Positions 5,880-25,966 of a DNA stretch of 64,000 nt are shown in pieces. Each line of letters begins with the position of its first letter. Positions within the stretch are counted from its first letter, which is position 1. The DNA lies in assembly GCA_020628095.1 (NCBI GenBank), contig JAHDFP010000002.1:310001-374000 (forward strand), in the 5' to 3' direction. Position numbers and translations under genes: made by a program. The stretch comes from Saprospiraceae bacterium. Lineage in GTDB: Bacteria; Bacteroidota; Bacteroidia; Chitinophagales; Saprospiraceae. The notes beneath the pieces were generated by a model. The model saw only the letters and a program-made list of their open reading frames with translations, had not been told where the DNA came from and made no database searches.

Positions 5880-7106
5880 TTATAAGATATTCTTTAAGGC
5901 TTCTACCAACATGTCAAGTTCCTTGTATGATGTACTCACATTCGGGCTGATTCTAATAAAGGGTTCTTTATTGTAAGAGGTGATTTTGACATGGATATTA
6001 TACTTTTCTTTTAACGCATTCCTGACAGAAACAGATGATTTAGGATGAGTTGTTATGCTGGCGATACCTCCCGATCTAGATATATCCGTTACTATCTTAC
6101 ATCCAGACAAATCCTTTACCTGATCAGTCCAATATTTTTTTAAAGATTCAAATCTTTTTTGTTTTGCACTTATCCCTGTGATTTCCAAAAAATCCAAAAC
6201 TGATTCTAAGGTCAGAAGGTTGGCAAATGATCTTGTGCCTAGATATTCAAATTTTTTCTTTTGATTCTTAAGGTCTAATGGATAGGACAAAGGAGGATTG
6301 GTCGTATTAATATGATTATCCTTTATGAAAATAACCCCTGTGCCATGTGGTGCATAAGACCATTTATGTAGACTGGATATGTAGTAATCACAGTTAATAT
6401 CATTGATACTCAGGTCTATGTGCCCTACAGCATGTGCACCATCAATTATCACGTCAACACCATTTTTCTTTGCCATGTCACATATCCGTTTTACTGGCAA
6501 AATCTGTCCTTCTCTATGCGTAATGTGCGTCAGGATAAGAAGCTTAGTCTTGTCGCTGATGGCATTTTTATATCGATCGACTATCTCATCGTCATCTATA
6601 ATCGGAAATCCTAAATCAATTTTTTTATTAGTGATTCCTTTTTCTTGGACCAGATGATCTACAGTATAATGCATGTAGGGATAATCACAAGATGCAGTGA
6701 TGACTTCGTCATTTTGCTGTAAGGGATACCCTCTGAGTGCTATGCTGATGCCTTCGGTCGTATTTCTTATAATATATAGGTGACCGTCTCGGACGCCGAT
6801 GAGTTGAGCTAATCGCTGTAACTGTGATTCGATTTTTTCCTGATTTCTGATCAGAACTTCGTAAGGCGCATGACTATTGAATCTTTTAATATTCTCGAAA
6901 TGACTTTCTATAATCGGGATAGGCATATTGGATGCAGAGCCATGGTTAAGATTGAGCAGACCCGTGTGATTGGGTAAAAAAAGAGACCTTATCTCTTCCC
7001 AGTCGACTGATGTTTCTTTTTCACGACTTTTTGAAAGTGGGTATTCTATGTTGGAAGCTATAGCAACACCGAACAAACTTTGAATAAAATCTCTTCGAGA
7101 GCTCAT
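5880..7106 (-). CDS. Tat-exported class V aminotransferase family protein
   Basis: A 408-residue fold-type I PLP enzyme. The N-terminus has a twin-arginine-like signal, SSRRDFIQSLFG, followed by a short hydrophobic region, so the folded cofactor-loaded protein is probably exported. The PLP-binding lysine is Lys248 (SSLHKWSYAPHG), and the cofactor-contacting DGAHAVGH has Asp222 and His225. The block KWxxAPxGTG resembles isopenicillin-N epimerase-like and cysteine desulfurase-like members. The reaction is not known. It converges with the hydrolase gene, with 24 bp between them. Confidence 0.85.
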   Translation of the reverse strand: MSSRRDFIQSLFGVAIASNIEYPLSKSREKETSVDWEEIRSLFLPNHTGLLNLNHGSASNMPIPIIESHFENIKRFNSHAPYEVLIRNQEKIESQLQRLAQLIGVRDGHLYIIRNTTEGISIALRGYPLQQNDEVITASCDYPYMHYTVDHLVQEKGITNKKIDLGFPIIDDDEIVDRYKNAISDKTKLLILTHITHREGQILPVKRICDMAKKNGVDVIIDGAHAVGHIDLSINDINCDYYISSLHKWSYAPHGTGVIFIKDNHINTTNPPLSYPLDLKNQKKKFEYLGTRSFANLLTLESVLDFLEITGISAKQKRFESLKKYWTDQVKDLSGCKIVTDISRSGGIASITTHPKSSVSVRNALKEKYNIHVKITSYNKEPFIRISPNVSTSYKELDMLVEALKNIL

Positions 7107-7284
7107 GATCTATGGGCACATTTAATTAAAAATGATAATCCGTCAAAAGATACATAATTATTGAGTAATCTTGTCAGATCATTGTAAAATCGTTACTTTA
7201 GCCTATACTGATCGCTTTCCTATTAGCATCTGACTTGCCTTAATTTTCTTATAACTATTTTTTATAATCTATAACCAGAACTAA

Positions 7285-7767
7285 ATGAATAAGTTAATCT
7301 GGATAATAGTCTTATTGATATGGATATTACTAGTATCCTGGATATGTCATAGACTATTATGTAATAACAGTGCAGATAATGTGGATGTCTGCGATAAGAT
7401 GGAATTGTCAGACGGAAAATGGAATTATGATGGAAAAGGCAACGTGATGTTTAAAAAATCCAGCGACGCATTGATACTTATAGATAACTATATGGATAAT
7501 GGGTTGGCTACTGTCAATAATTATCTGATCGATCATAAAGATCGCGCCGTCTTGATAACAGGACTATACGAAGAGAATGAATCTTATTCTGGCGGTACAG
7601 AGAAGAACTTAGGCCTGGCTAGAGCTAATTCTATCAAAGAAGTTTTTCTCAATAACGGAATCAAAGCAGAACAGATTTCCGTCAATGGTAAAATGTATAA
7701 ATCAGCTTGCACGTCAGGTGATACCTTGCGCAAAGCGGCAACCTTTAGTTTCAGATCAATTCAATAG
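7285..7767 (+). CDS. Single-span membrane protein with OmpA/MotB-like C-terminal domain
   Basis: A 160-residue protein with one strong membrane segment at about residues 4-25 and a soluble remainder. The region 70-160 follows the OmpA-like pattern: VLITGLYEE in place of the usual VxIxGHTD, then LARANSIKEVFLNNGI matching the LSxxRAxxVxxYLxxxGI helix, then a QISVNGK strand. The canonical peptidoglycan-contacting Asp is replaced, so peptidoglycan binding is uncertain. It lies 45 bp before the coiled-coil gene on the same strand with no visible terminator, so it may be the first gene of the helix-hairpin-helix cluster. Confidence 0.65.
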   Translation: MNKLIWIIVLLIWILLVSWICHRLLCNNSADNVDVCDKMELSDGKWNYDGKGNVMFKKSSDALILIDNYMDNGLATVNNYLIDHKDRAVLITGLYEENESYSGGTEKNLGLARANSIKEVFLNNGIKAEQISVNGKMYKSACTSGDTLRKAATFSFRSIQ

Positions 7768-7812
7768 ACTTATTAAGAACTTTTTTATTCAGACATTAAA
7801 ATTCTCACTCAA

Positions 7813-9942
7813 ATGATATATCAAACTTTATTTAGTCTCGTCCCATTAAGTGGAATATTGAGCTGGCTCATTCCTATATTATTATTGTTGCTTACGGCAT
7901 GGTTAGCTTGGTGGGCCGGTAGTCGCTCTATGAAAGCAAGTTATGAAGAGGCCAAAGCCAACTGGACTAATGAGAGATCGAGATATGCGAACCTCAAAAA
8001 AGAGTATGACGCTGTCAATAGTAATTATAGCAGTGCCATGTCTCAGTATGATACAGAAAAAAATAGCTGGGCATCCAAATTTACTTCTTGGGAAACAGAG
8101 CGTACGGGGTTACTAGGTAAGCTCAAAGAATCACCGTCTGAGATAGAGATAGAAAAAGAAATAGAAGTCATCAAAGAGATCGAAGTAGAGAAAGAAATAG
8201 AAGTAGTCAAAGAGGTGGAAGTGATCAAAGAAGTAGAGGTCATCAAAGAGGTAGAAGTGATCAAGGAAGTGGAAAAGCCCGTGGAAGTAATAAAAGAGGT
8301 AGAGAAGATAGTAGAGAAGCCAGTGGAGGTCATCAAAGAGGTGGAAAAGATAGTGGAGAAGCCCGTGGAAGTCATCAAAGAAGTAGAGGTAGTCAAAGAG
8401 GTGGAAGTGATCAAAGAAGTAGAAAAGCCAGTAGAGGTAATAAAAGAGGTAGAGAAGATAGTGGAGAAACCTGTAGAGGTTATCAAAGAAATAGAGAAAA
8501 TAGTAGAGAAGCCAGTCGAAGTCGTGAAAGAGGTGGAAGTGATCAAGGAAGTAGAAAAGATAGTGGAGAAGCCGGTAGAAGTTATTAAGGAAATAGAGAT
8601 CGTTTCCGAAAAGATAGTAGAGAAGCCAGTAGAAGTCATCAAAGAGGTGGAGGTAATAAAAGAGGTGGAAGTCATTAAGGAAGTAGAGAAACCAGTGGAG
8701 GTTATCAAAGAGGTAGAGAAGATTGTAGAGAAACCAGTGGAAGTGATCAAGGAAGTGGAGAAAATAGTGGAGAAGCCAGTCGAGGTAATAAAAGAGGTGG
8801 AAGTCATCAAAGAGGTACAAGATGAGAAGGCACTGAATGATCTACGAGGCAAGTATGAGAAGCTGGAGTCTGACTGGAATCTTAAGTGGACAAACTGGCA
8901 AACGGAGAAGCAGCAGATGACCTCAGACTTAGAGTCCAAGGCAAAAGACGAGAAAGCATTGAATGATATGCGTGGCAAGTATGAGAAGTTGGAGTCGGAC
9001 TGGAATCTTAAGTGGACAAATTGGCAAACGGAGAAGAAGCAAATGACCTCAGACTTAGAGTCTAAGGCAAAAGACGAGAAAGCATTAAATGATTTGCGAG
9101 GGAAGTATGAAAAATCTGAGTCAGATTGGAATCTTAAGTGGACAAACTGGCAAACGGAGAAGAAGCAGATGACCTCAGACTTAGCGGCTAAAGCAAAAGA
9201 TGAGAAGGCATTGAATGATCTACGTGGTAAGTATGAGAAGTTAGAGTCAGATTGGAATCTTAAGTGGACTAATTGGCAAGCAGAAAAGAAACAAATGACA
9301 GCGGAGCTGAAAGCAAAGCCGAAAGAAGTGGAAGTTATCAAAGAAGTCGAAGTCATCAGAGAGGTAGAAGTCATCAAGGAGGTGCCAGTAGAAATTATCA
9401 AAGAAGTAGAGGTTACCAAGGGAGTGGATATGGAAGCTTTATTGGCGATGGTCTCTCAGGTCGATACAGTAGAAGTATCTCGAAAGACAACAGGTACTCA
9501 AAGGACAGTCAAGAGCGAAGAAGCAAAAATTGTATCTAAAACTACCAAAGCCGCCAAAGCTAAATCTAGCGCAAAAGCGACCAAGTCAACAACTAAAAAG
9601 AAAACTACCGCATCAGGTGCCAAGGCTAAATCAGCAGCCAAAACGACAACGAAGTCTACTACTAAAAAAGCCACGGCCTCTAAAGGATCAAAACGTGATG
9701 ACTTGACCAAAATAGAAGGTATAGGTCCTAAGATTCAAGGACTACTATATGCGGATGGAATCTATACATGGCAAGCTTTGTCTAAGACAAAAGTCTCTGT
9801 AATACAAGCTATTCTAGACAAGGCAGGACCAAGATATAAAATGCACAACCCAGGATCATGGCCAAAGCAATCTAAGCTTGCTGCCACTGGAAAATGGGAT
9901 GCACTAAAAGTCCTACAGGACGAACTGCAAGGAGGGAAGTGA
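7813..9942 (+). CDS. Membrane-anchored repeat coiled-coil protein with H1-like linker and C-terminal HhH domain
   Basis: A 709-residue protein built of clear modules. Residues 10-36 form one membrane segment. Residues 40-108 are a Trp-containing coiled coil. Residues about 110-336 are an extreme low-complexity stretch of variants of EVIKEVEKIVEKPV. Residues 337-504 are four 42-residue tandem repeats, each with three tryptophans (DWNLKWTNWQ). A short EVIKEVE stretch and the segment KEVEVTKGVDMEAL follow, then a Lys/Ala/Thr-rich histone H1-like linker (about 575-627). Residues 629-709 are a helix-hairpin-helix domain (KIEGIGPKI). The last three modules recur in the protein at 11149. A membrane-bound, nucleic-acid-facing tether is inferred; no function is established. 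Confidence 0.85.
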   Translation: MIYQTLFSLVPLSGILSWLIPILLLLLTAWLAWWAGSRSMKASYEEAKANWTNERSRYANLKKEYDAVNSNYSSAMSQYDTEKNSWASKFTSWETERTGLLGKLKESPSEIEIEKEIEVIKEIEVEKEIEVVKEVEVIKEVEVIKEVEVIKEVEKPVEVIKEVEKIVEKPVEVIKEVEKIVEKPVEVIKEVEVVKEVEVIKEVEKPVEVIKEVEKIVEKPVEVIKEIEKIVEKPVEVVKEVEVIKEVEKIVEKPVEVIKEIEIVSEKIVEKPVEVIKEVEVIKEVEVIKEVEKPVEVIKEVEKIVEKPVEVIKEVEKIVEKPVEVIKEVEVIKEVQDEKALNDLRGKYEKLESDWNLKWTNWQTEKQQMTSDLESKAKDEKALNDMRGKYEKLESDWNLKWTNWQTEKKQMTSDLESKAKDEKALNDLRGKYEKSESDWNLKWTNWQTEKKQMTSDLAAKAKDEKALNDLRGKYEKLESDWNLKWTNWQAEKKQMTAELKAKPKEVEVIKEVEVIREVEVIKEVPVEIIKEVEVTKGVDMEALLAMVSQVDTVEVSRKTTGTQRTVKSEEAKIVSKTTKAAKAKSSAKATKSTTKKKTTASGAKAKSAAKTTTKSTTKKATASKGSKRDDLTKIEGIGPKIQGLLYADGIYTWQALSKTKVSVIQAILDKAGPRYKMHNPGSWPKQSKLAATGKWDALKVLQDELQGGK
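8140..8820 (+). repeat. Low-complexity VE/KE coding repeat
   Basis: About 680 bp coding for alternating charged and aliphatic residues in units such as EVIKEVEKIVEKPV. Unit lengths vary between about 5 and 14 residues, and synonymous codons differ between copies (GTA/GTG, GAA/GAG), so copies are diverged at DNA level while the protein pattern is kept. This creates long false open frames on the opposite strand. Confidence 0.9.
8821..9324 (+). repeat. Four 126-bp tandem repeats (42 residues each)
   Basis: The units start at 8821, 8947, 9073 and 9199. Each begins DEKALND(L/M)RGKYEK and carries DWNLKWTNWQ(T/A)EK. The copies are nearly identical in protein and very similar in DNA, pointing to recent expansion. 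The fourth unit ends in a diverged KAKPK that leads back into the VE/KE pattern. Confidence 0.92.
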
Positions 9943-9988
9943 TAAATTTTAATTTATAAAGAAACTTATTCTTAAAAAAGGAAATTGA

Positions 9989-10975
9989 ATGCAGTATTCT
10001 AAAAAGCGATTGGTTAATAAAGCCATCCCCGATAATGATCCTAATGGGCTATTGGATGTTGTCAGAGTAGTCAGAGATTTAACAGTGAAGGATGTCTGTG
10101 TCCATGTTAATATTAGTCATCCTTACACGGGAGATGTAAGTGTAGAGCTTACAGCACCTAATGGGAAGAAAAAAGTTCTGCACTCTCCGTCTCGAGTGCC
10201 TGGTAAAGATTTGAAAAAGAAATTCCAAGGCGATTTATTGGATTTATTCAATGGGCAAAAATCCAAAGGCGAGTGGATACTAAAGGTGTCAGATAATGGC
10301 GCGAAGGATAGCGGCACATTGGAGGATTGGACATTGGATTTGACCTTGGCTAATTCTAAGAGGTCAGAAGTTTTTGTTGATGATAAAGAAACCTTGAGCA
10401 GTACTCAGGTATGTCATCAGGGTGGAAAGATATCATCCCTAAGTTGTAGTATGCACGTGGAGCATGGGCATATAGGAGACTTGCATTGCGAGTTATTCTG
10501 CCCGAGCGGAAAGTCAGTAGTATTGCACAATAAGACTGGAGGTGCATCACAGAATCTAAATAAGACCTACGGTGACGATATCTTGAAAGGTCTGCATGGA
10601 GAGTCTGCTAAAGGTAAGTGGAGCTTAAAAATCAAAGATACCCTCAAAGGGGATGCAGGAAGATTGGTCTCTTGGAAGCTTAATATAAAGACACAATCGA
10701 AAAGTGCCGCAGCATCATCTGATCAAAAAGATGACTTAACCAAGATAGAAGGCATAGGTCCAAAAATCAAAGAACTTCTGTATAATGCTGGTATTTATTC
10801 TTTCAGGTCATTATCTCAGACGGAAGTATCTAAGATTAAAACTATTCTAGATAAAGAAGGTCCTCGATATCAGATGCATGACCCTGGCTCTTGGCCGAGG
10901 CAATCGTTGTTAGCGGCTGATGGAAAATGGAAGGAACTGGAAAAACTACAGGACGAATTAGACGGTGGAAAGTAG
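9989..10975 (+). CDS. Tandem P-domain protein with C-terminal HhH domain
   Basis: A 328-residue protein. Residues about 8-120 match the proprotein convertase P-domain (P/Homo B): IPDNDPNG, HPYTGDVSVELTAPNGK, then KGEWILKVSDNGAKDSGTL and WTLDL. A second, more diverged P-domain covers about 128-235 (HIGDLHCELFCPSGK, GKWSLKIKDTLKGDAGRL). Residues 248-328 are the 81-residue helix-hairpin-helix domain shared with the neighbouring genes. P-domains usually sit next to secreted proteases, but no protease domain and no signal peptide are present here, so the protein may stay in the cytoplasm. It is 46 bp after the coiled-coil gene and is followed by a strong terminator. Confidence 0.85.
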   Translation: MQYSKKRLVNKAIPDNDPNGLLDVVRVVRDLTVKDVCVHVNISHPYTGDVSVELTAPNGKKKVLHSPSRVPGKDLKKKFQGDLLDLFNGQKSKGEWILKVSDNGAKDSGTLEDWTLDLTLANSKRSEVFVDDKETLSSTQVCHQGGKISSLSCSMHVEHGHIGDLHCELFCPSGKSVVLHNKTGGASQNLNKTYGDDILKGLHGESAKGKWSLKIKDTLKGDAGRLVSWKLNIKTQSKSAAASSDQKDDLTKIEGIGPKIKELLYNAGIYSFRSLSQTEVSKIKTILDKEGPRYQMHDPGSWPRQSLLAADGKWKELEKLQDELDGGK

Positions 10976-11000
10976 ATTCTTTACGTAAAAAGAATACATG

Positions 11001-11034
11001 AAGAGGGAATTATTCTACGTAATTCCCTCTTTTT
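11001..11034 (+). terminator. Rho-independent terminator after the P-domain gene
   Basis: A perfect 12-bp stem (AAGAGGGAATTA at 11001-11012 paired with 11020-11031), a 7-nt loop and a T-rich tail. It separates the P-domain gene from the H1-like gene, so the third HhH gene is transcribed on its own. Confidence 0.88.
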
Positions 11035-11073
11035 AATTTGTGGGTGTTTGTCATTATAATCAACAGAAATACT

Positions 11074-11108
11074 TTGAGATATTATTAATTTTTTTAATGT
11101 AATTTTGC
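11074..11108 (+). promoter_or_regulatory. Bacteroidota-type promoter of the H1-like gene
   Basis: TTG at 11074-11076 and an exact TAnnTTTGC -7 box (TAATTTTGC, 11100-11108), separated by 23 bp, within the usual 17-23 bp range. The start codon at 11149 lies about 40 bp downstream. Together with the terminator just upstream this marks an independent transcription unit. Confidence 0.7.
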
Positions 11109-11148
11109 GTTCAGAAAATTAAAAAATTTATTTATTCAATAAAGACTA

Positions 11149-12810
11149 ATGGCAACGACAAGAAAGAAGACCACAGCCAAAAAAACAACTGCAAAGAAAA
11201 CTGGTAGCGCTAAGAAAACAGCGGTAAAGAAAACAGCAAAAAAAGCGACCGCTAAAAAGTCAATAACGGCAAAGACGACAGCGAAAAAGACAACAGCTAA
11301 AAAAGCAGCAGTAAAGAAGGCAACGCCAGCTAAGAAGACGGTTGCAAAAAAGACTACAAGGAAGTCAACAGCGAAGAAAGCAACACCTGTAAAAAAGGCA
11401 ACAACCAGAAAGACGACAGCGAAGAAGACAACAGCTAAAAAAGCGGCAGTAAAAAAGGCAGCGCCTGCTAAGAAGACGGTTGCGAAAAAAACAACTACAA
11501 GGAAGTCAACAGCAAAGAAAGCAACGCCTGTAAAAAAGGCAACAACCAGAAAAACCACAGCTAAAAAAGCGACACCAGCTAAGAAGACGGTAGCGAAAAA
11601 GACAACAAGAAAGACGACAGCGAAAAAAACAACTCCTGTCAAAAAGACGACAACAAGGAAGACCACTAGAAAAGTGACTCCTGCAAAGAAGACCGCTGCA
11701 AAGACGACAAGAAAAGCGACAACTAGCAGAACTGCAACTAAAAAAGCGACTCCAGCAAAGAAAGCCACAACCAGAAAAACAACCGCTAAAAAAGCAACAA
11801 CAAAGAAAGCTGCACCTGCTAAGAAGGCAACAACTAGAAAGTCGACTACTAAAACTACTACTAAAAGGGCAAGTGCTTCTGCTAAGAAAACAACAGGCAG
11901 AAAAACGACAGCAAAAAAGACGACGACAAGAAAAACGGTAAAAAAAAAAGTAAGTAGTACGGCGGGTAAGATTATATCTCGTACTGAAAAAATTACGAGA
12001 GGCAAAATCAGACGTCAGCCTACTCGTGAGGTAATCAAAAAGGTCGAGGTTATCAAGGAAGTGCCTGTAGAAGTAATCAAGGAGATTACAATTATAAGAG
12101 AGGTAGAAGTACCTGTGGTAAAGACAGTGATCAAAGAAGTGCCAGTAATCAAAACCGTTGTAAAGGAAGTCCCAGTAGAGGTGATCAAAGAGGTAGAGGT
12201 TATCAGAGAGGTCGTAAAAGAAGTTCCAGTAGAAGTGATCAAAGAAGTAGAAGTGACTAAAGGAATAGATATGAAGGCTCTTCAAAAAATGGTACTTGGT
12301 CTCAAGACAGTCGAGGTATCTAAGAAAGTGGTAGGGGAGAAACGAACCAAAGGTGAAGGTAAGATAGTATCACGAAAGGAGGTAAAACCGACAGGAAGAA
12401 AAGCCACTAAGGTTGTCACTAAAGAAGCTAAGGAAGTCAAAACATCTTCTTCTAAAATGGAAGGTAAAGCGACAACGACAGCAAAACCTACTACTGCTAA
12501 AAAGGTTGTAACTAAAACAACGACAAAGAAGAGTAGTGGAAGTAAAGCGAGAGCTAAAAAAGGTGATGATCTTACCAAGATAGAAGGTATAGGACCAGCA
12601 ATCCAAAATCTACTTAATGAGGATAACATCTTTACTTTCAAGGAGTTATCTGAGACTAAGATATCTGTATTACAGGCCATCTTGACTAAAGGAGGACCTA
12701 AGTTCCAGATGCATACCCCTGGATCATGGCCTAAGCAGTCTAGCCTAGCGGCGGCTGGTAAGTGGGACGATCTGAAAAAATTACAGGACGTACTATCAGG
12801 AGGCAGATAA
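11149..12810 (+). CDS. Histone H1-like Lys/Ala/Thr-rich protein with EVIKEVE stretch and C-terminal HhH domain
   Basis: A 553-residue protein. Residues 1-270 are almost only Lys, Ala, Thr, Arg and Pro in repeats like KKATPAKKTVAKKTT, as in eukaryotic H1 tails and bacterial H1-like proteins (HctB, BpH1 type); this part should bind DNA without sequence preference. Residues about 293-370 are VE/KE units with many VPV variants (KEVPVEVIKEVEVI). The junction KEVEVTKGIDMKAL and a following VEVSKK segment are shared with the protein at 7813. A second basic linker leads to the HhH domain at 473-553. No signal peptide or membrane segment is present. A nucleoid-associated role is inferred. A terminator follows directly. 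Confidence 0.87.
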   Translation: MATTRKKTTAKKTTAKKTGSAKKTAVKKTAKKATAKKSITAKTTAKKTTAKKAAVKKATPAKKTVAKKTTRKSTAKKATPVKKATTRKTTAKKTTAKKAAVKKAAPAKKTVAKKTTTRKSTAKKATPVKKATTRKTTAKKATPAKKTVAKKTTRKTTAKKTTPVKKTTTRKTTRKVTPAKKTAAKTTRKATTSRTATKKATPAKKATTRKTTAKKATTKKAAPAKKATTRKSTTKTTTKRASASAKKTTGRKTTAKKTTTRKTVKKKVSSTAGKIISRTEKITRGKIRRQPTREVIKKVEVIKEVPVEVIKEITIIREVEVPVVKTVIKEVPVIKTVVKEVPVEVIKEVEVIREVVKEVPVEVIKEVEVTKGIDMKALQKMVLGLKTVEVSKKVVGEKRTKGEGKIVSRKEVKPTGRKATKVVTKEAKEVKTSSSKMEGKATTTAKPTTAKKVVTKTTTKKSSGSKARAKKGDDLTKIEGIGPAIQNLLNEDNIFTFKELSETKISVLQAILTKGGPKFQMHTPGSWPKQSSLAAAGKWDDLKKLQDVLSGGR

Positions 12811-12839
12811 GAATTTACTTTATTCTTATAGTTATAGAG

Positions 12840-12873
12840 AAAAGAGGAAACATGGAATGTTTCCTCTTTTTTT
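12840..12873 (+). terminator. Rho-independent terminator after the H1-like gene
   Basis: A perfect 14-bp stem (12840-12853 with 12857-12870; arms AAAAGAGGAAACAT and its complement), a 3-nt loop GGA, and a run of T continuing to 12873. Confidence 0.9.
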
Positions 12874-12977
12874 GTTGCGTTATATATGGATTATAGTTTT
12901 CGATAACCAAAAATTTGTAGGATTTGCTGAACTGCATAAGGCAGAAATCCATTTCATATAAGTATAAATTAAAAAGT

Positions 12978-13682
12978 ATGCATTTTATATCAAATATATT
13001 ATTCGCACTTATTCTGGTGGCTCAGTCGTGTAATACATCTAATAAAAGTCTCGCCACAATAGATGATAAGCCTGCTACCCAAACTAATAAAGAAACTTAT
13101 CCCTTAGCAGATTATATCCAGTCGAATAGTCTTGAGAATGCTAGTGTGGCGATATTTGCAGGTGGATGTTTTTGGTGTACCGAGGCGGTGTATGAGAGAA
13201 TAGAAGGTGTCACGGATGTGATAAGTGGTTATGCGGGAGGAGATCAGGATTATCCTTCTTACTATGAAGTAGGTGCAGGCAAGACAGGGCATGCCGAGGC
13301 CATTGCCATATTCTATGATACGACGGTTGTGGACTATAAGACTCTATTGGAAGTATTTTTTGTAGCCCACGATCCGACCACGCTTAACAGGCAAGGTCCA
13401 GATGTAGGTAGCGAATATCGCTCCGCGATATATTATAATTCTGATAAAGAAAGAGAGATCATCAATAATCTAATATCAGAAACTGATAACAAAAAACTAT
13501 ACGACGATCCTATCGTCACAGAAGTAGAGCCTTACCAAGAATTTTGGGTCGCTGAAGGATACCACCAAAACTACTACGAACTCAATCCTAATCATGGCTA
13601 TGTCGTACGCGTAAGTCGCCCTAAGGTAGAAAAGGTCAAAAAAGTCTTTCCTTCGTTAATAAAAAAGAAGTACAGGTCCTAA
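12978..13682 (+). CDS. msrA: Peptide-methionine (S)-S-oxide reductase MsrA, exported lipoprotein form
   Basis: A 234-residue MsrA. The active-site motif GCFWCTE has the catalytic Cys64 and Cys67. Other MsrA blocks are present: GYAGGDQDYPSYYEV, GHAEAI, FFVAHDPTTLNRQGPDVGSEYRS and the C-terminal YHQNYYELNP. It reduces methionine-S-sulfoxide in proteins. The start at 12978 places a signal directly at the N-terminus with a possible lipid-modified Cys18 (AQSC, a weak lipobox), so it probably protects envelope proteins. A start at 12924 is possible but would add 18 polar residues before the signal. Confidence 0.93.
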   Translation: MHFISNILFALILVAQSCNTSNKSLATIDDKPATQTNKETYPLADYIQSNSLENASVAIFAGGCFWCTEAVYERIEGVTDVISGYAGGDQDYPSYYEVGAGKTGHAEAIAIFYDTTVVDYKTLLEVFFVAHDPTTLNRQGPDVGSEYRSAIYYNSDKEREIINNLISETDNKKLYDDPIVTEVEPYQEFWVAEGYHQNYYELNPNHGYVVRVSRPKVEKVKKVFPSLIKKKYRS

Positions 13683-16657: not shown

Positions 16658-19600
16658 ATGCATTTCCCAAAACCGGTAACACCGCTTGCCCCTGCACGTG
16701 TATATTTTACTTTATTATCATCAGGCAACTTAACCAAATTCTTTTTTCTTATTTCCTTCTTACTTTTTACCCATCTTACTTCTATTGCACAATGCGATAA
16801 TGATATTTATGATTTGGCGGATGAAAGTTTAGTAGATGACGTGCCTGACGAAGCTGAATTGGAAGCTGGTACTTTGTACTGTACGGAAGCGAATCTTCTT
16901 GCTTGGTTCAAGACTATTGAGGCAATGAATGCGGATGGAGACATTGTCTCAAGTTGGTATGATTTCAGTAATTGTGGAAGGCAGTTAAAAATATTTCAAG
17001 AAGAATGTGACGACAGAACTGATTTCTTTGGTAAGATATATAGTATTAATTACAACAGAGCCTTGAGAATAGGAGAATTTGGTATAGATACCGAATTTCG
17101 TATAGGTAACTCTCTTAGTAACGAAATTACTGTCATGGCCGTTTTAGTACCTCAAAAAAGAAGAATTGAGGATAGAGAAACGGAAGATGTGAGATTGGAT
17201 TTGCCAGATATTGGAACAGTTCGTTCATTAGATATTGATGTTTTGCATGTGCTCTCACCATTATCTAACAAAGAAGATATAGATTATGACCACTATGAAG
17301 ATATAGAAAGTAACTGTATTGGTATAGATGGCAGTGGAGCAGATATGCTGATCCAAGCACCAGCAGTATCTCCTTATACACCTGATGAGAATTATGATTT
17401 TGAGAGATACGGAAAGATTATTACGTACCAAACGGTTATAAGACAAGATAGATGTTATTCTATTAATGGTATGATGGGACAACTATACCGTTTAAATTTT
17501 GATGCTACGTTTCCTTTTATTCAGCAGGATGGATTAATTCCAGAATTTTTAGTATTCGATGGAATACTGAGCGAACACGATAGAGCCAAAGCGGAAACCT
17601 ATCTGGCCATAAAGTATGGCATCTCCAAGGAGATGGACTACGTTTGGTGTGGGGAAGAGGAAGATGAAGCGGTCTGGGATTATTGTCCAGAAATGAATGA
17701 AGAATTTCCTGCATATCAAAGATACAATTATCGTAAGACAGGTATTGCAAGAGATGATCAATGGAGTTTACAGCAATCTAGATCTAATAGCTATTATGAT
17801 GAGCGAATAAAAAGAGAAGATGATTTTACGCTTGGCAGATACATTCAATACGATGATCCGATGCAATCAGATTATTCTCACTCCAAGGAAAGACTTCTAA
17901 CGATAGGTATAGAAGATGAATCCAGCGGTATCCGTTGTAGAGCAGAAGATAGGAGTTATCATATATGGGGAGATAATGATGCAGGTCTTGATCTATTAGA
18001 TGAGACAGGAATTGGATGGAATAATCAGGAAGTAGAACATCTGGAACGTATCTGGAAGATGGAGAAGACTGGTGCGCAAGGATACGTGCCATCAATAAGA
18101 TGGCTTAATTATGTAGGCCTAGATAACTTTGGACTCAGAAGAGATCATGAATTTGGATATTGTGCATCGACTACACATATAGTTGAAGATCCAATTACTG
18201 AAACCACCGAAGGTACTTTCAGCTTTATGATTAATAGTTTGGGTGGTGATGGAACGCTAATCGGTTTTGCATCTAATAATATGGATTTTGTTTTAGGGTC
18301 ATCTGGTAGTTCCGAGGCTGGCCTATTATATGGAATCGAGATTAAAGGAGGTACAGCTCAGATAGTAAGAGACATTGGCGGTACTGGAACGCATCAGTAT
18401 TTGGACCCTCCTCAGATACTATCACTTAGTGAAGACGTAGAATATACATTTTATCACAGAAGAGAACCAGATCAGACTTATTATTTTGAGCTTCGTGGAG
18501 CGGGAGATGAAGTGTACCCTTTCCGTAGTGATTATGTATGTGTAGGTACTGGGGAAGTATACGCCAAGATTTATATTAATGGTGGAGGCAGTTTTTATAA
18601 TTTGGAAGGGGAAAACTTTCTAGGCTCTTTTCAGCAAGCAACCAATGTAGAATTTTCAATTTCACAGGTGTCTGAACTTGCAGGTATGTCTGATTCTGAT
18701 ATGAAATCAAAGGTTCCATTATTATTGATTAGTAACCAAGATAGAGAGTTTAGAGATCCAATAGATGCCATAGCAGGGAGTTACAGTATAACTCCTGGTG
18801 GTCAACATGATAAGATAGAATTTACAAGAGTACTTTGGGACGATACCAGATCGCAATTATTTACTCTTGGTTTTGCCGATTGCCCTGAGCCAAAACTTGA
18901 TGCGGTAGACACAAAAGTTTGTTGTGATAGGCTTATGATTGGATTTACAGCAATAGAGAATTGCAAACCAGATCACCCTATAAGATACGAGTTAAGGGAT
19001 GATTCTGATGCACTCGTCACCAGTGGCTTATATGAGCCAGGTAATCATAATCCTGATGATTGTATAGAGGCGGCATATCAGATACCTGGCACATTTGACT
19101 TAGGTGTTTCTTATACGCTTCACGTTCATTTTAGTGATTGCTATGAGCTAACGGCATCTATTAACGAGGATGAACTTCCTTTTCCTGAAGAACTGATTGA
19201 AGATCCTAGTATATGTATTGGTGAGCGAGTAACATTGGTGGAGTCGGATATCTTGACTAAATGCAGCAATGGCGTTAACTATAATTGGTATCGCGTTTCT
19301 GATGATGTAATGGAGGATTTAGGGTCTACAGGAGGACCTGATATAAATGATGATTTAGAGGAAGGTGTCTACCTACTGGTTGTAGAAAAAGAATGTATTG
19401 ATGGATATTTCTGTGAGGCCACTGAAGAAGTAATAATAGAAAATTGCTGTGCTGTGGATGTTATTGTGGAAGAAGAATTTTGCTGTCCTTGTGCTTATGT
19501 TAATGTTAGTATTCAGACTAATGATGTGCAATGCGAAGAAATTATTTCGGGGCCAGCTTTAATGACTATTACTAATCTCAATAATACCTGTGACTATTCA

Positions 19601-22600
19601 TTCGAGATCCCTCTTAATGGAGACCCTGTACCACTTGATATTTGTTTTGAACCAGGTTCTTACGATTATTACCTAACATATGCTAATGGTGAAATAGAGG
19701 AAGGGTTAGATTTTGAGATAAAAGGTTATGATCAGTATAAGAATAATATAGATCTAGGACTACAAAAATTGGACTTTGATTTATCTACTCATAGTGAATT
19801 CGGGCAATACGGAAATTTTATTGGTTTAGTTTCGGAGTTAGTGAGTAATGGTGATGTTCCCACAGAAAAAGAATGTGGTCTAGCACAATTTGATGCAGCT
19901 AATGCTGAAGCGCGCGATGCAGACGAATTAATCTTCAGTGATGTGGGTTGCTACTTGGTTGAAATTATTGAGCTCTGTGATAATGAAGATCTATTATTTT
20001 CTTGTCCTAGCGGATTAGAAACCAACGAATTTGACTTTTTTCAAAATAATTATGACTTATTTGATAATACATGTCGTGATAGATATTGTTTTTGTATTAG
20101 CGAATGTGACCAACCAATAATAGGATATGACGCCGATGTTAAACATCCCACTTGTGATAATCCAGTGGGTTCTGTAATCATTACTCCAGAAGGAGGAGAA
20201 TTGCCTTATAGTTACATATTGGAAGAAGGTGGTTTAGAGCTTATTTTGGATGCAGATGGGCGCATAGAGAATCTTTTACCAGGTACTTATAATACGACAG
20301 TAACAGACGCATGTGATTATGCTGTAGTGGATAGTTTTACTGTAGAATTCCCTGCTCCTCCTGACGTGACGACGATAATACCTGATTTGCTTTGCGCAAG
20401 TGATCTACCGGGTATTCTAACTGTAGAAGCAAGCGGTGTAGAACCTTTATCGTATGAATGGTCTACAGGAGAGACGACCCCTTCTATAGAATATGATAGC
20501 TCTGGTATATACTCCGTAATTGTTACAGATGCTCAGGGGTGTCAGACTACAGATGAGGTAACTATCGATGCACTGACTGATGTAGTCGCATCAGCAACGA
20601 GTAATAGTCCAGTATGTACAGGAGATGAGATTATGCTCATGTCCTCTCCTGATAATATGGCAAGTTATGTATGGGAAGGTCCCCTAGGGTTTTCTTCTAC
20701 ATTACAGAACCCATCAAGAATAGCAGAGCAAAATAATTATGCAGGAATCTATACAGTCACAGTAACAGATCATAGTGGCTGTAGCAGTACTGCTAGTACA
20801 TTAGTACAGATTAATCCGCATATACAATCTTTCGTTGATTATATAACGAATGATATATGCGGCTCAGGCGTAGGTGAGATTGATATCTTTTCTGTAAGTG
20901 GTGGTACTGAACCTTTCAGTTACAATTGGTCTGGACCAGAAGGCTTTACTTCTGATCAAAATCATATAACAGGATTGTACGAAGGGGATTATTTGATAAC
21001 AATAACAGATATCAATGGTTGTTCCTACGACAAGAAGATAATAGTATCTAATAATCAGCGATGCTCGGAATTTAGTTCTATAGAGATTAGCGGGGATAAT
21101 GTGAATAGTTGTCTTGATAATTATGCTGAAGTATTTGTAAGTGCTGCATGTATGCAACCAATAACTTACGAAGTGACATCAACAGGATTTTCTTACTATG
21201 ATAGTGGAGAGTATAATGGAGGTCGTATACATCTCAACCTTGATCAGCTACCTGCGCAGTCTGAAGGCACGGTTACCGTAACATTGACTGATGGTAACGG
21301 ATGTAGTTGGTCAGATACACGTGATTATTCCAAGTGTCCTTATACGGATAATTGCAGTATTGTAAATACATATATAGATGGAACATATTGTGAGTTCAAT
21401 AATGCTCTTAACAAAATGCAGGTAAGAGTTGATTTCAATGCTGAATTAGAAATAGGATGTTTAAATCAAGAATGTGAGCCAGATTGTGCTAGTACTCGGT
21501 GCAATTTGAGATCAACCAACGAAGTTATGATAGTTAATGGGCATGATATTAGTCATGAGCTATCTAGGTGGCCAATTTTGTATCCGAAGCAATGTGATGA
21601 TTCATCGATTAAGATTTTCCAATCTTTTTTTGAATGGGATTGCAGGTTTGCTGGGATGTCAGGGGTATTTTCTATTGATATAATTAATTATGTAGAAGGA
21701 GAAATTGTAGGGTCTTACTCTGGTTCATTTATATATCCATCAGGATGCTCAGATCCTGTAGACGTAGAAATAACTGGAGAGACTATATTATGTAATGGAG
21801 AAGAGAGTACAACACTTTTTGCAGATGTTCTTGATGGAAGCCCAGTCTACAGTTATGACTGGTCTACAGGAGAAGAGAGTGGCTATATCGATGTGACGGA
21901 ATCGGGGTTATATAATGTTACGGTGACAGACCAGTATAATTGTACCGACGAGGCACAAGCCGAGGTAGTATTCGCTACAGGCTTCTCTGCAGAGTGTGAG
22001 ATACAACAACTCCGCCCTACACTAAACCATCCAAAAGGTATCTGCGAGGCACAATGGCAGGATAAAGGAACAACTAATAATGATGTACGATTATATGCCA
22101 GAACAGATAAGTCTGGACTGCAGTACCACTGGACTACTGATTGGACTAGTAATATAACAAGGTTTGACCTCAATTATCTAAACCTAAAGGACCTTACTCC
22201 AGGTATATGGACAGCTAGCGTGACAATTACTGACCCTTCTACAGGATGTATAGAAGTATTAGATTATACTATTATAGTAGAAGGAACATGCCTACCAGAA
22301 TGTATAGAAGTCCAAGATGATTGCAACGGGGCAAGTAATGGTAGCATCACAATAGAAGAAAACGCTGTAGCGCCTTTCACTTATGAGTGGAGTGATGGAC
22401 AGACGACTAATCCAGCGACGGGATTATCTGCAGGTATATATAGTGTCACCATTACAGATGCTTTAGGCTGTACTGGCGAGGTGACTTGTGAGGTAGAAGG
22501 TTCGGATTACTCTAAAACTTGTCAAATAAGAGAACACTATTTACCTGATAAACTTCATGATGGCTTATGCGAGTTAGTGTGGACGGACAAGGGTACAACT

Positions 22601-25600
22601 CTTAACGATGCGACACTATACGCTCAGAGCGGTACTTCTGGACAGACATTCGTCTGGACAACAGATTGGACTGGTCCCACATCTGGAGGGACAAGTACCA
22701 GTAATTGGATAAGACTCAATAATATGACCGTCGGTAAATGGAACGCCAGTGTTACTGTAACTGATAATAATACGGGATGTACAGAGACCTTAGACTATTG
22801 CATTACCATATTACCTCCTTGTGCGGACTCAGAAGTGTCTGCAAGTAATAATAGTCCAATATGTGAAGGTGACGATATTTTATTTTTATCAGGACCTGAT
22901 GATATGGTGTCATATGCTTGGGAAGGACCACAGGGTTTCACTTCGACGCTACAGAATCCTATTATTACTAATGCTGAGCGTAATCAATACGGATTATATA
23001 CGCTTACGGTTACTGATGATGAAGGATGCACTGGTACTGCTAGTACTCGTGTTAGAGTAATTGCTAACTTATTGAGTACTCCTGATTTTGTTACGCCTGA
23101 TTATTGCGATGCTTCTATAGGTGCTATAGATATCAATGCTTATAACGGGTTGCCGCCATACTCATATTCTTGGTCTGGTCCTGATGGTTATACTGCAACG
23201 ACCCAAGACATTTCATCATTGAGATCGGGTATTTATACTGTTCTTATAGAGGATGCATTAGGTTGCTCTAAATCTGAAACTGTGGAAGTTCCTAACTTTA
23301 ATGATTGCTCACTCAATAGTCGTATAAGCTTTCATCAAGGGGATTATGCTTATAGCCATCCTGGATGTAAAGATATAACTGTCGGTTTTATAGCTGATAG
23401 TAAATGTGCCTCACCAATTACTTTCGAGATAAGCTCTTCTGGGGATTTAACTTTTGAGACTATTTCACCTCAGGTATGGACGAGAGGTGATAATTTTATA
23501 ATTCCAGCGACCCAAGAAGCCATTGGTGCTTCTGGTGAATATACTGTTACGGTCACTGATGCGAATGGATGTATTTTTAGTGATTCATTTGCATTTACTA
23601 GGTGTTCATACGAAGATGGTATTCAACTAACCAATTCAGGTACGTTGATAGAAGTGGGATGTAGTGAATCAGATTATAGGTTTATCGAAATGACTTTTTC
23701 ATTTGATTTAGAAATAGGTTGTAACCCCGAGTATAACGCCGGAGTGTTAGGGTATCACCTTAGAGGAACTAACGAAAATGTTGAGGTGGGTGGAGAAAAT
23801 CTTTGGGCGAGCTTCTCTTTCGGTAATAATGCGACAGGATTATGTAACACTACCACTTATTACGAAAAGTTAAAAGTTCTTTGGGATTGTTCTTTGGCTG
23901 GGCAAGAAGGGATTTACAGTTTTGATCTTTATAGTGAGACGATTAATGAGGTCGTCGGAACTGCATCAGGCATATTCACTTATCCTACAGGCTGTAGTCC
24001 AGATACTGAAGTACTTATCAGTAGTGGGGATATATCTTGTGACGGTAGTATTCCGACAACTCTTACTGCTAATGTAGAAAACGGATCATCTAATTATGAT
24101 TTCTTATGGTCTACTGGTGAGGTTACAAAAAGTATTAATGTAATGAGTTCTGGAACGTACTCTGTTACTGTTAGTGATTATTATAACTGCACAGATGAGG
24201 ATGACATCGTGCTAGATATGAGCAGTGGAATTATAACACCAGAATGTGTGGCAGTAAGAGATGAATCTAATGCACAAGCTAATGGTATGATCTTAGTGGG
24301 TAGCGATGGTACGGCACCATATGCATATGAGTGGAGTAATGGACAGACTACTAATCCAGCAGTAGGCCTCGTGGCTGGAACATATACCGTAACGGTCACT
24401 GATGATACAGGTTGTTCAGGAGTTATGTCCTGTCAAGTAAAATCATGTCAGAATTCGAGTAATTTTAGTGCCGATGTGCCACCTGATCCAGGTGGAGATC
24501 CATGTCCTTGTACAGAAGCTATATCTGCATCGTATACTGTAGACTCTGGTCACTGTGGTCTGAATGATGCAAGTGTGACTCTGGATATAGTTGGCGGAGC
24601 ACCTCCTTACTATTATGAATTGGGTACTATTTCTGGAGTATTCCAGAACGGTCAAGGTAATGTTATTGAAAACCTTGCACCTGGTTCCTATAATTTATAC
24701 ATCGCAGATTTTGGACATTGTACTTTTGAGACTATAGTTGTTATTCAGCCTCCGACAACCTTAGGAGATATTACAATTGAAATTACAAACGAAACTTGTC
24801 AAGAGAATGAGTTCTATGTAGATGTCGTAGATGTTACAGGTGGTACGCCTCCATATACATATCTATGGGAAAATGGTGAGACGACATCATTTATTAAGGA
24901 TGTTAGTGGTTATCATCGCCTTACGGTTACCGATGAATTAGGCTGTACAGCAGTAAAAGCGGTACAAGCGTATTTGCCGAATATCATGAGAATAGACAAA
25001 GAAGACCCATTATGTGGTATTAATAACGGATCACTATCTCCAGTTGTATGGTTTGGAGTTCCAGGATATTCTTATCTATGGAATACAGGAGAAACTACTG
25101 AGACTATTCAAAATCTGGGACCTGGTAATTATACTCTTACCGTTACAGATGCTATGGGATGTACGGATGTAGAAAATATTGCTTTGAATTATGTGGATGA
25201 AATAGAAATCTCTACTAGTGGCGGCAACCAAGGTTTTTTAGAAGGAAGATACTTACCTGCTGGTATGAATATAAACTGGTGGTTCAATCCGCAATATGTT
25301 ACTGACCAATTAATAATTAGAGATGCAAATGGAACTGTCATAATTAATACTGCTGGCGTTACGAATGGTAGCCAGGTAGATTGTAATTCGGCTCTTTGCT
25401 GTAATTGCTGCTCGGACCATTTCTTGGCAGATTTGAATGGTCAGATTATTAATCTGGCGCCAGGAATAGGAACTGCTTATGTCAATACGCCAGGGCTCGA
25501 AGGTTCTTTTACTACAACGACATCGGGTAATTATCAGATAGAAGTTATAGGAAGCTTGTGCACTGGGTCAACTAACTGGGAACTTAGTTTAAGTTGTAGT

Positions 25601-25966
25601 ACAACTATTGCTAAGAATGATGCACGATATAGTGAAGAATTTGTTGGCGCAATATCAGACACATTTTCTCATAATAGACTAATGCAGACAATATCTCCAG
25701 AGATAGAAAACATCTCTTTCGATCTAATGCCTAATCCTGCCAAGGATCATGTAACATTAAGAAAATACGGAGCGTATTCTGATCCTTATAATCTGAAAAT
25801 ACTGGACTTGAGCGGAAGGGCTGTTATCACTGCTAATGATATAGACTCTGATAATTATGTTATCGACTTAACTAATTTATCTCCTGGTTTGTATCTGGTA
25901 CATGTTACGATAGAAGATATGGTCGTCATCAAAAAACTAGTCGTAGAAAGAAAGTATGATGATTAA
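16658..25966 (+). CDS. Giant T9SS-secreted adhesin-like protein with SprB-type repeats
   Basis: A 3102-residue surface or secreted protein. A signal segment (about residues 24-46, ending SIAQ) is followed by an N-terminal module containing YLAIKYGISKEMDYV and GIARDD, a pattern seen in many large Bacteroidota surface proteins, and then a Cys-rich region. From about residue 1150 there are many SprB/PKD-like repeats of the form PPYTYLWSTGETT...GxYTVTVTDxxGC. Residues about 1308-2597 hold nested duplications (see the repeat entry). The C-terminus is a type A T9SS sorting domain: LMPNPAKDHVTL, LDLSGR, LSPGLYLVHV and VIKKLVV. Function is likely adhesion, gliding or matrix building. No convincing promoter was found upstream. 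Confidence 0.88.
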   Translation: MHFPKPVTPLAPARVYFTLLSSGNLTKFFFLISFLLFTHLTSIAQCDNDIYDLADESLVDDVPDEAELEAGTLYCTEANLLAWFKTIEAMNADGDIVSSWYDFSNCGRQLKIFQEECDDRTDFFGKIYSINYNRALRIGEFGIDTEFRIGNSLSNEITVMAVLVPQKRRIEDRETEDVRLDLPDIGTVRSLDIDVLHVLSPLSNKEDIDYDHYEDIESNCIGIDGSGADMLIQAPAVSPYTPDENYDFERYGKIITYQTVIRQDRCYSINGMMGQLYRLNFDATFPFIQQDGLIPEFLVFDGILSEHDRAKAETYLAIKYGISKEMDYVWCGEEEDEAVWDYCPEMNEEFPAYQRYNYRKTGIARDDQWSLQQSRSNSYYDERIKREDDFTLGRYIQYDDPMQSDYSHSKERLLTIGIEDESSGIRCRAEDRSYHIWGDNDAGLDLLDETGIGWNNQEVEHLERIWKMEKTGAQGYVPSIRWLNYVGLDNFGLRRDHEFGYCASTTHIVEDPITETTEGTFSFMINSLGGDGTLIGFASNNMDFVLGSSGSSEAGLLYGIEIKGGTAQIVRDIGGTGTHQYLDPPQILSLSEDVEYTFYHRREPDQTYYFELRGAGDEVYPFRSDYVCVGTGEVYAKIYINGGGSFYNLEGENFLGSFQQATNVEFSISQVSELAGMSDSDMKSKVPLLLISNQDREFRDPIDAIAGSYSITPGGQHDKIEFTRVLWDDTRSQLFTLGFADCPEPKLDAVDTKVCCDRLMIGFTAIENCKPDHPIRYELRDDSDALVTSGLYEPGNHNPDDCIEAAYQIPGTFDLGVSYTLHVHFSDCYELTASINEDELPFPEELIEDPSICIGERVTLVESDILTKCSNGVNYNWYRVSDDVMEDLGSTGGPDINDDLEEGVYLLVVEKECIDGYFCEATEEVIIENCCAVDVIVEEEFCCPCAYVNVSIQTNDVQCEEIISGPALMTITNLNNTCDYSFEIPLNGDPVPLDICFEPGSYDYYLTYANGEIEEGLDFEIKGYDQYKNNIDLGLQKLDFDLSTHSEFGQYGNFIGLVSELVSNGDVPTEKECGLAQFDAANAEARDADELIFSDVGCYLVEIIELCDNEDLLFSCPSGLETNEFDFFQNNYDLFDNTCRDRYCFCISECDQPIIGYDADVKHPTCDNPVGSVIITPEGGELPYSYILEEGGLELILDADGRIENLLPGTYNTTVTDACDYAVVDSFTVEFPAPPDVTTIIPDLLCASDLPGILTVEASGVEPLSYEWSTGETTPSIEYDSSGIYSVIVTDAQGCQTTDEVTIDALTDVVASATSNSPVCTGDEIMLMSSPDNMASYVWEGPLGFSSTLQNPSRIAEQNNYAGIYTVTVTDHSGCSSTASTLVQINPHIQSFVDYITNDICGSGVGEIDIFSVSGGTEPFSYNWSGPEGFTSDQNHITGLYEGDYLITITDINGCSYDKKIIVSNNQRCSEFSSIEISGDNVNSCLDNYAEVFVSAACMQPITYEVTSTGFSYYDSGEYNGGRIHLNLDQLPAQSEGTVTVTLTDGNGCSWSDTRDYSKCPYTDNCSIVNTYIDGTYCEFNNALNKMQVRVDFNAELEIGCLNQECEPDCASTRCNLRSTNEVMIVNGHDISHELSRWPILYPKQCDDSSIKIFQSFFEWDCRFAGMSGVFSIDIINYVEGEIVGSYSGSFIYPSGCSDPVDVEITGETILCNGEESTTLFADVLDGSPVYSYDWSTGEESGYIDVTESGLYNVTVTDQYNCTDEAQAEVVFATGFSAECEIQQLRPTLNHPKGICEAQWQDKGTTNNDVRLYARTDKSGLQYHWTTDWTSNITRFDLNYLNLKDLTPGIWTASVTITDPSTGCIEVLDYTIIVEGTCLPECIEVQDDCNGASNGSITIEENAVAPFTYEWSDGQTTNPATGLSAGIYSVTITDALGCTGEVTCEVEGSDYSKTCQIREHYLPDKLHDGLCELVWTDKGTTLNDATLYAQSGTSGQTFVWTTDWTGPTSGGTSTSNWIRLNNMTVGKWNASVTVTDNNTGCTETLDYCITILPPCADSEVSASNNSPICEGDDILFLSGPDDMVSYAWEGPQGFTSTLQNPIITNAERNQYGLYTLTVTDDEGCTGTASTRVRVIANLLSTPDFVTPDYCDASIGAIDINAYNGLPPYSYSWSGPDGYTATTQDISSLRSGIYTVLIEDALGCSKSETVEVPNFNDCSLNSRISFHQGDYAYSHPGCKDITVGFIADSKCASPITFEISSSGDLTFETISPQVWTRGDNFIIPATQEAIGASGEYTVTVTDANGCIFSDSFAFTRCSYEDGIQLTNSGTLIEVGCSESDYRFIEMTFSFDLEIGCNPEYNAGVLGYHLRGTNENVEVGGENLWASFSFGNNATGLCNTTTYYEKLKVLWDCSLAGQEGIYSFDLYSETINEVVGTASGIFTYPTGCSPDTEVLISSGDISCDGSIPTTLTANVENGSSNYDFLWSTGEVTKSINVMSSGTYSVTVSDYYNCTDEDDIVLDMSSGIITPECVAVRDESNAQANGMILVGSDGTAPYAYEWSNGQTTNPAVGLVAGTYTVTVTDDTGCSGVMSCQVKSCQNSSNFSADVPPDPGGDPCPCTEAISASYTVDSGHCGLNDASVTLDIVGGAPPYYYELGTISGVFQNGQGNVIENLAPGSYNLYIADFGHCTFETIVVIQPPTTLGDITIEITNETCQENEFYVDVVDVTGGTPPYTYLWENGETTSFIKDVSGYHRLTVTDELGCTAVKAVQAYLPNIMRIDKEDPLCGINNGSLSPVVWFGVPGYSYLWNTGETTETIQNLGPGNYTLTVTDAMGCTDVENIALNYVDEIEISTSGGNQGFLEGRYLPAGMNINWWFNPQYVTDQLIIRDANGTVIINTAGVTNGSQVDCNSALCCNCCSDHFLADLNGQIINLAPGIGTAYVNTPGLEGSFTTTTSGNYQIEVIGSLCTGSTNWELSLSCSTTIAKNDARYSEEFVGAISDTFSHNRLMQTISPEIENISFDLMPNPAKDHVTLRKYGAYSDPYNLKILDLSGRAVITANDIDSDNYVIDLTNLSPGLYLVHVTIEDMVVIKKLVVERKYDD
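20580..24450 (+). repeat. Nested long duplications A1-B1-C1-B2-A2-C2 inside the giant adhesin-like gene
   Basis: Three module types each occur twice. Module A (about 20580-21995 and 22830-24230) begins SNSPVCTGDEI or NNSPICEGDDI and contains WEGPLGF/WEGPQGF, a Cys-rich central part with LEIGC and IYPSGCS or TYPTGCS. Module B (about 21995-22290 and 22510-22815) has KGTTNNDVRLYA or KGTTLNDATLYA and TTDWT. Module C (about 22293-22505 and 24240-24450) has EWSDGQTTNPA or EWSNGQTTNPA. The copies are diverged at the DNA level, so the duplication is old. Confidence 0.82.

Follow-up and report, generated by a model that had tools for sequence, protein, structure and literature searches.

Three neighbouring genes of a Saprospiraceae bacterium encode proteins whose last 81 residues constitute one shared helix-hairpin-helix (HhH) domain, behind entirely different front ends, which raises the question of what this shared tail does and whether the genes that carry it form a system of their own. 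The genes are part of a 64,000-nucleotide stretch of DNA (GenBank assembly GCA_020628095.1, contig JAHDFP010000002.1, positions 310,001 to 374,000 of the forward strand), which we refer to as the window and within which coordinates are counted. A first-pass annotation of its sequence had proposed a dedicated assembly that leads from the membrane to the nucleoid. We find that the gene set, composed of genes for an OmpA-like protein, a membrane-anchored repeat protein with tail, a double P-domain protein and an H1- or HU-like protein with tail, is real and that its members stay together in relatives, whereas the notion of a three-gene system of which the tail is the defining mark is refuted, with six of the nine tails of this genome located outside the block. 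The tail is a general module and not the mark of a dedicated set. In our preferred reading, whose chances we hold to be about even, it is a nucleoid-tethering tag of the PhaH type and the block a tether between envelope and chromosome, where DNA binding, co-assembly and tethering are what we infer.

Anatomy of a four-gene block with a common tail

The block consists of four genes on the forward strand, whose open reading frames (ORFs), tail boundaries and unrelated front ends are as initially annotated. The first (7285–7767) encodes an OmpA-like protein with an N-terminal membrane anchor and one degenerate OmpA domain (Pfam OmpA, 3e-6). It is followed by genes for a membrane-anchored, coiled-coil-like repeat protein of 709 residues (7813–9942), a protein of 328 residues with two P-domains (9989–10975; P_proprotein, 7e-41 in two stretches) and a lysine-rich, H1-like protein of 553 residues (11149–12810). 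The last three carry the tail, at residues 629–709, 248–328 and 473–553 (positions 9697–9939, 10730–10972 and 12565–12807), and in three ungapped pairwise comparisons 57, 56 and 49 of the 81 residues are identical. When the genome was searched with one tail, its two counterparts were retrieved at E-values of 7.6e-34 and 6.8e-34, far beyond what is expected by chance. AlphaFold predicts the tail as a five-helix domain in a confident model (with a pLDDT of 96–98 over most of the tail of the 11149 protein), and the structural neighbours with the highest Z-scores are DNA polymerase theta (9.3), RadA (7.9) and the C-terminal repeat of NusA (7.4). The best Pfam match of the sequence, HHH_5, falls below its cut-off. 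Across 176 tails the GIGPK hairpin is almost invariant, and in the second half of the domain W55 and Q58 are invariant and W67 and Q74 nearly so.

The two outer tailed proteins share more than their tail. In the 7813 protein, a membrane segment near the N-terminus (about 7837–7926) precedes EVEVIK-type repeats (8140–8820), which also occur in the 11149 protein, and the chain further contains four WNLKWTNWQ-type repeats at a spacing of 42 residues. Between the repeat and a basic linker, both proteins contain a second common module, about 50 residues long (9406–9555 and 12247–12396), which was absent from the first-pass annotation, as were the six further tails in the genome. A profile of 29 relatives detects this module in the 11149 protein at 1.1e-23, in the 7813 protein at 1.5e-14 and in C16, a paralogue encoded elsewhere in the genome, at 3.7e-23. 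The linker that precedes the tail of the 7813 protein (9556–9696) is H1-like, with a net charge of +17 in its last 50 residues. A tree of tails joins that of the 7813 protein with that of the 11149 protein as sisters (98/90), adjoining the tail of a repeat protein from a genus relative, and the tails therefore seem to have been copied between members of the block.

The H1-like part of the 11149 protein is its N-terminal half, with 38% lysine and arginine in residues 1–293. It matches the Pfam model HC2 at 2e-24 (87 bits versus a cut-off of 40) in what is largely a compositional agreement in Lys, Ala and Thr, and it does not reach the cut-off of the NCBIfam HC2 model (35.5 of 135). In the 9989 protein, no hydrophobic leader or signal peptide was recognized by eye.

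Conservation of the block in relatives

The linkage of these genes was followed in 80 named loci, which were picked by tail similarity and are not a random sample. After ActC and ActD (L083), a cytochrome oxidase (L123) and an S1 protein with a hydrophobic ORF extension (L122) had been dropped from the count of membrane-anchored tail genes, 26 were left, and an OmpA-like gene is located directly upstream in all 26, in support of the proposal that the gene at 7285 is a fourth part of the block. In 25 such pairs, the window's among them, 11–74 bases separate the two genes. A second set of 15 loci, mostly with short membrane-tail genes, has an OmpA-like gene adjacent in 13, and further OmpA-like genes are found upstream of two-tail membrane genes (L063, L068, L070, L071) and of the tail frames in L131 and L151. 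Since OmpA adjacency recurs across the loci, the pair of OmpA-like and membrane-tail genes constitutes a widespread core.

The remaining genes of the block are elaborations of this core, mainly in Saprospiraceae-labelled metagenome-assembled genomes (MAGs) as sampled here. Thirteen of the 17 H1/HU-like tail genes in the named loci are found downstream of a tailed repeat-protein gene, with a P-domain gene intervening in two; of the other four, two are truncated where their contigs begin (L079, L119) and two have no repeat-protein gene within 6 kb (L081, L089). All ten recognized P-domain genes adjoin a tailed gene, four being tailless themselves and the one in L078 lying on the opposite strand. 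The full order within the genus, OmpA-like gene, membrane protein, P-domain protein and third protein, the latter three with tail, followed by an ABC-F gene, is found in L054 and L055. L052 maintains this order without the P-domain gene, L056 is truncated at the contig end, and L059 combines a membrane gene with a tailless P-domain gene, with no OmpA-like or third gene recognized.

In relatives, the front of the third protein has a different character. A profile of its N-terminal motif matches the first two helices of HU in a set of PDB sequences, at best at 5e-4 (HU-alpha), and in an AlphaFold model of modest quality (mean pLDDT 66, better in the helices) this region forms a two-helix hairpin. 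In a Foldseek search, HU chains occupy ranks 1–20 and 22, and the top ones superimpose at 0.5 Å over 29 residues, with E-values near 1. The HU-like front is present in five of 14 genus genomes, a profile search found no match to it in the window's 11149 protein, and in L085 and L119 lysine-rich and HU-like parts are found in a single chain. With an H1-like front here and HU-like fronts or both in relatives, parts resembling DNA-binding proteins are therefore exchanged at one place, while the repeat, the second module and the tail are retained.

The density of lysine and arginine suggests a cytoplasmic location of the long C-terminal part of the membrane protein in 22 of 25 pairs and a periplasmic location of the OmpA part in equally many, the latter a weak assignment due to the short N-terminal flank.

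Other arrangements were encountered among the loci. In the genus relatives L063, L068, L070 and L071, a further pair of OmpA-like and membrane genes is located beside an MsrA-like gene, with two tails that are part of one frame in three of them and of adjacent frames in L071; none of the nine tails of the window's genome belongs to this two-tail pair. The membrane-tail gene at 4137–5459 of L059, which has no OmpA-like gene upstream, encodes a protein whose first residues resemble the anchor of OmpA partners and precede another membrane segment, so that the two anchors may have been fused, and a P-domain protein at 1032–1976 of L113 carries a tail that has strongly diverged from the consensus.

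Distribution of the tail

The six tails of this genome outside the window belong to the ribosomal proteins S1, S6, S16 and L27, to a respiratory subunit of the NrfD family (ActC-like) and to the 427-residue repeat protein C16, which has an OmpA-like gene directly upstream and thus provides the genome with a second OmpA and repeat-protein pair. In an even sample of the phylum, 49 of 296 genomes contain a match at an E-value of 1e-3, the weakest being other HhH proteins, and in a sample of 60 genomes from the family, 51 contain the tail at 1e-10, the highest number per genome being 18, in genome G371. The search across Bacteroidota that the first-pass annotation had called for thus had a split outcome, with linkage maintained and the tail being general. 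At 1e-6, G371 contains 19 matches, and over both samples the number per genome ranges from 0 to 19. Exactly one match, a strong one, is found in 13 of the 49 matching phylum genomes; the tail therefore does not depend on another tailed protein, which excludes that it generally acts by bridging two different proteins of this kind and fits DNA binding, a common protein partner and self-association equally well.

In total, 173 distinct tail proteins were extracted from 157 loci. Among chosen representatives, Pfam confirmed L20, L21, S2, L15, L17, ActD and cytochrome oxidase subunit I as hosts and placed an AMPK/CBM48-like carbohydrate-binding domain below its cut-off, while in tail-rich genomes AMPK/CBM48-like proteins, an acyl-CoA ligase and a FAD-binding molybdopterin-dehydrogenase subunit were found above cut-off. 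The two latter enzymes are encoded in G371 (L208 and L200, among L186–L215). Nine different ribosomal proteins bear the tail in one genome or another, and the isolate Portibacter lacus has a tailed S1 (L149, classified by BLAST). Many hosts belong to large assemblies, for which the tailed enzymes are not an obvious fit.

Several occurrences of the tail stand apart. Two or three tails in tandem are found in proteins of L098 (an L27-type protein with three), L116, L125 and L145 (L20 with two). Plasmid records of Riemerella anatipestifer of about 100 kb carry an annotated L21 with a related tail (NZ_CP081938, NZ_CP081932, NZ_CP072187), an odd location for such a ribosomal protein. Tail proteins closely resembling those of Bacteroidota are also found in MAGs labelled Acidobacteriota (L088, L141) and Chloroflexi (L123), reflecting either mis-binning or transfer.

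Relationship to known proteins

The closest functionally studied relative of the tail is found in PhaH of Caulobacter crescentus. Compared as tail-only sequences with the NCBIfam model PhasinPhaH (NF045508), eight of ten tails match at 3e-8 to 0.04, their alignments starting at position 171 of the 234 in the model and reaching 232 at most, within its C-terminal part; for the tail of L162, PhaH is not listed at an E-value of 1. The granule-binding phasin N-terminus of PhaH is not matched by any protein of the window, and with 16–17 bits against the whole model none reaches the family cut-off of 250. According to a 2025 review, PhaH attaches to polyhydroxybutyrate (PHB) granules with its N-terminus and to DNA, without specificity, with its C-terminal HhH domain; it is reported to position granules along the nucleoid, and they are disorganized when phaH is missing. 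PhaM and PhaF are described there as likewise having an N-terminus for granules and a C-terminus for non-specific contact with DNA (PMC13052382). The resemblance concerns a C-terminal HhH domain behind a part that is seated on a large assembly, with tethering by DNA binding reported for PhaH (PMC13052382). Unlike PhaH, the proteins described here have an envelope anchor, P-domains or an H1/HU-like part as front ends in place of a phasin, and three tailed genes follow in a row together with an OmpA-like gene. PhaF, PhaM and AlgP are histone-like analogues, with a C-terminal histone-like domain in place of the HhH domain.

C-terminal HhH domains on unrelated proteins are also contained in the NCBIfam models PRK12373 (NuoE), PRK12278 (L21) and PRK12311 (S2), presumably of alphaproteobacterial origin, to which tail-only sequences match down to 3e-7, in most cases ending before the last 10–20 residues of the window-type tail. 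A related tail is found in protein-O of the RC-LH1 complex of Dinoroseobacter, where the sharing across unrelated proteins was noted and its function called obscure; only residues 8–59 were traced in the map, the remainder being flexible or lost according to the authors (PMC12079452). For these HhH-tailed proteins, unlike for the block, the parts of that report considered here describe neither a linked gene set nor partner genes related to envelope or nucleoid (PMC12079452).

Other large proteins in the window

Two large proteins are encoded downstream of the block on the forward strand. One of 3102 residues (16658–25966) contains SprB repeats and a T9SS sorting domain and is probably a surface adhesin or a gliding-related protein; another of 3200 residues (26035–35637) matches SpvB, TcdB-middle, FG-GAP and RHS.

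Discussion

The link from membrane to nucleoid that was suggested initially remains the best reading of the block, with DNA binding as its presumed basis. In this mechanism, the tail would bind DNA without sequence preference and hold its host protein against the chromosome. The OmpA-like protein, located in the periplasm on the side of the cell wall, would pair with the 7813 protein in the inner membrane, whose long repeat would extend into the cytoplasm and end in the basic H1-like linker and the tail. A soluble H1/HU-like protein, with matching repeats, second module and tail, would coat DNA and co-assemble with the 7813 protein, the double P-domain protein would act as additional cytoplasmic subunit, and the four parts would jointly tether the envelope to the nucleoid. 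Of this picture, our data show the identity of the domain, the maintained linkage, the fold predicted for the tail, the kinship of its sequence to the HhH domain of PhaH and the HU-type hairpin in the partner protein of relatives, while the topology of the membrane and OmpA-like proteins would follow from the charge rule. The basic linkers of the repeat proteins, the 13 phylum genomes with one strong tail match and the untraced remainder of protein-O also count in favour of a DNA tether. A more extended version, in which the block is the counterpart of the eukaryotic nuclear-envelope linker, running from OmpA at the cell wall across the inner membrane and a long repeat to H1/HU at the nucleoid, and in which the tail also suspends from the chromosome ribosomes, respiratory complexes and proteins related to storage and so organizes much of the cytoplasm around the nucleoid, appears doubtful to us, if worth stating.

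A number of observations weigh against a DNA-binding tether. Regarding the block itself, it is not universal: separate frames with a tail that lie no more than 5 kb apart are present in at least eight of the 60 family genomes (G000, G324, G331, G346, G359, G360 and G362 among the matches listed, plus G371). Seven of 14 genus genomes (G000, G001, G002, G004, G005, G007, G011) were seen to have the block's membrane gene or H1/HU gene with tail, where the matches of the others were partly fetched, and no OmpA neighbour was found for the membrane-tail loci L059, L164 and L166. A terminator-like hairpin of 14 pairs between the P-domain and H1-like genes (11000–11032), found in a consensus scan that detected 9 such sites in 7000–13100 versus 4.7 expected, may separate the H1-like gene from the rest of the transcription unit. 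At the periplasmic end, the OmpA match of the 7285 protein barely passes its cut-off (27.9 versus 27.2 bits) and is the weakest of 21 in the genome. Peptidoglycan-binding OmpA/Pal domains carry the canonical motif GHTD...LS..RA, which a regular-expression search detected in 21 of the 32 OmpA proteins that act as partners in these loci (13 of the 21 also show the degenerate motif ITG...NLGLARA of the 7285 protein) and found neither in the 7285 protein nor in the C16 paralogue; the periplasmic end may therefore bind something other than peptidoglycan in this organism. The third protein of relatives shares with the HU family the helix 1–helix 2 hairpin at its head, unlike HU it is predicted without beta arms, the rest of the modest model being unstructured, and the window's own protein is without a match. 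Kinship to PhaH-type HhH domains likewise holds for the domain family overall and weakly or not for the copies of the window: the P-domain tail matches PhaH at 0.04, and for the 11149 and 7813 tails the match is not listed up to an E-value of 1.

The charge and conservation of the tail lead to the most serious rival, in which the tail is a protein-docking tag that binds one common protein, such as RNA polymerase, or itself, which we consider fairly unlikely. The C-terminal repeats of NusA bind proteins and belong to the same fold class; they are among the structural neighbours of highest Z-score (7.4 and 7.1) and, in the case of AR2, a weak relative in sequence (0.0077), although AR2 is, unlike the tail, part of a single transcription factor. 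The net charge of the tail varies from –10 to +8 while W55, Q58, W67 and Q74 remain fixed or nearly so, and this conservation of the second half exceeds what simple non-specific DNA binding needs, which is the best argument for docking. The very different hosts also favour it, and docking is kept alive by the acidic tails of S1, S16 and ActC; on average, the tails of S1 and S16 are acidic, as are the linkers that precede them (–4.3, n=30, range –19 to +10, and –9.3, n=6). On the other side, PhaH is reported to use its domain for DNA (PMC13052382), and within the block the tail is accompanied by H1 and HU parts and by basic linkers, with a mean charge of +16.7 over 50 residues in repeat proteins (n=6, classified by best hit) and of +11.4 and +11.9 ahead of the tails of the H1/HU class (n=14 each), which takes in some membrane proteins. 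We consider it improbable that the tail has no single common function and is added promiscuously to C-termini, for instance as a cap for stability or solubility, with three copies that happen to be found in an envelope-related operon. The variety of hosts and the wide range of copy number would suit such an add-on, as would at least 54 changes of host kind on the tail tree versus a minimum of 12, a count that rests on few columns and many unresolved forks, whereas across 79 diverse rows five positions of the tail are invariant and another 17 are conserved at 90% or more, and most members of the block keep their tail beside maintained OmpA and H1/HU genes. More improbable still is a tail that binds RNA instead of DNA, holding ribosomes to messages or rRNA, with the membrane block anchoring translating mRNA or polysomes to the membrane. 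The nine tailed ribosomal proteins would be in line with this proposal, yet these sit on RNA anyway, enzymes and proteins resembling carbohydrate-binding modules are tailed as well, and the H1/HU-like partners and PhaH indicate DNA.

A link between envelope and nucleoid has long been postulated, in the form of transertion and of the attachment of chromosomes to the membrane, and to our knowledge few protein bridges between the two are known. If the tethering reading is correct, the OmpA-linked block would be a candidate for such a physical tether and would extend the PhaH-like use of HhH domains to the envelope. The breadth with which the tail is employed would be of equal note, as one small domain would then serve as a reusable address label for the chromosome that is attached in parallel to many large assemblies.

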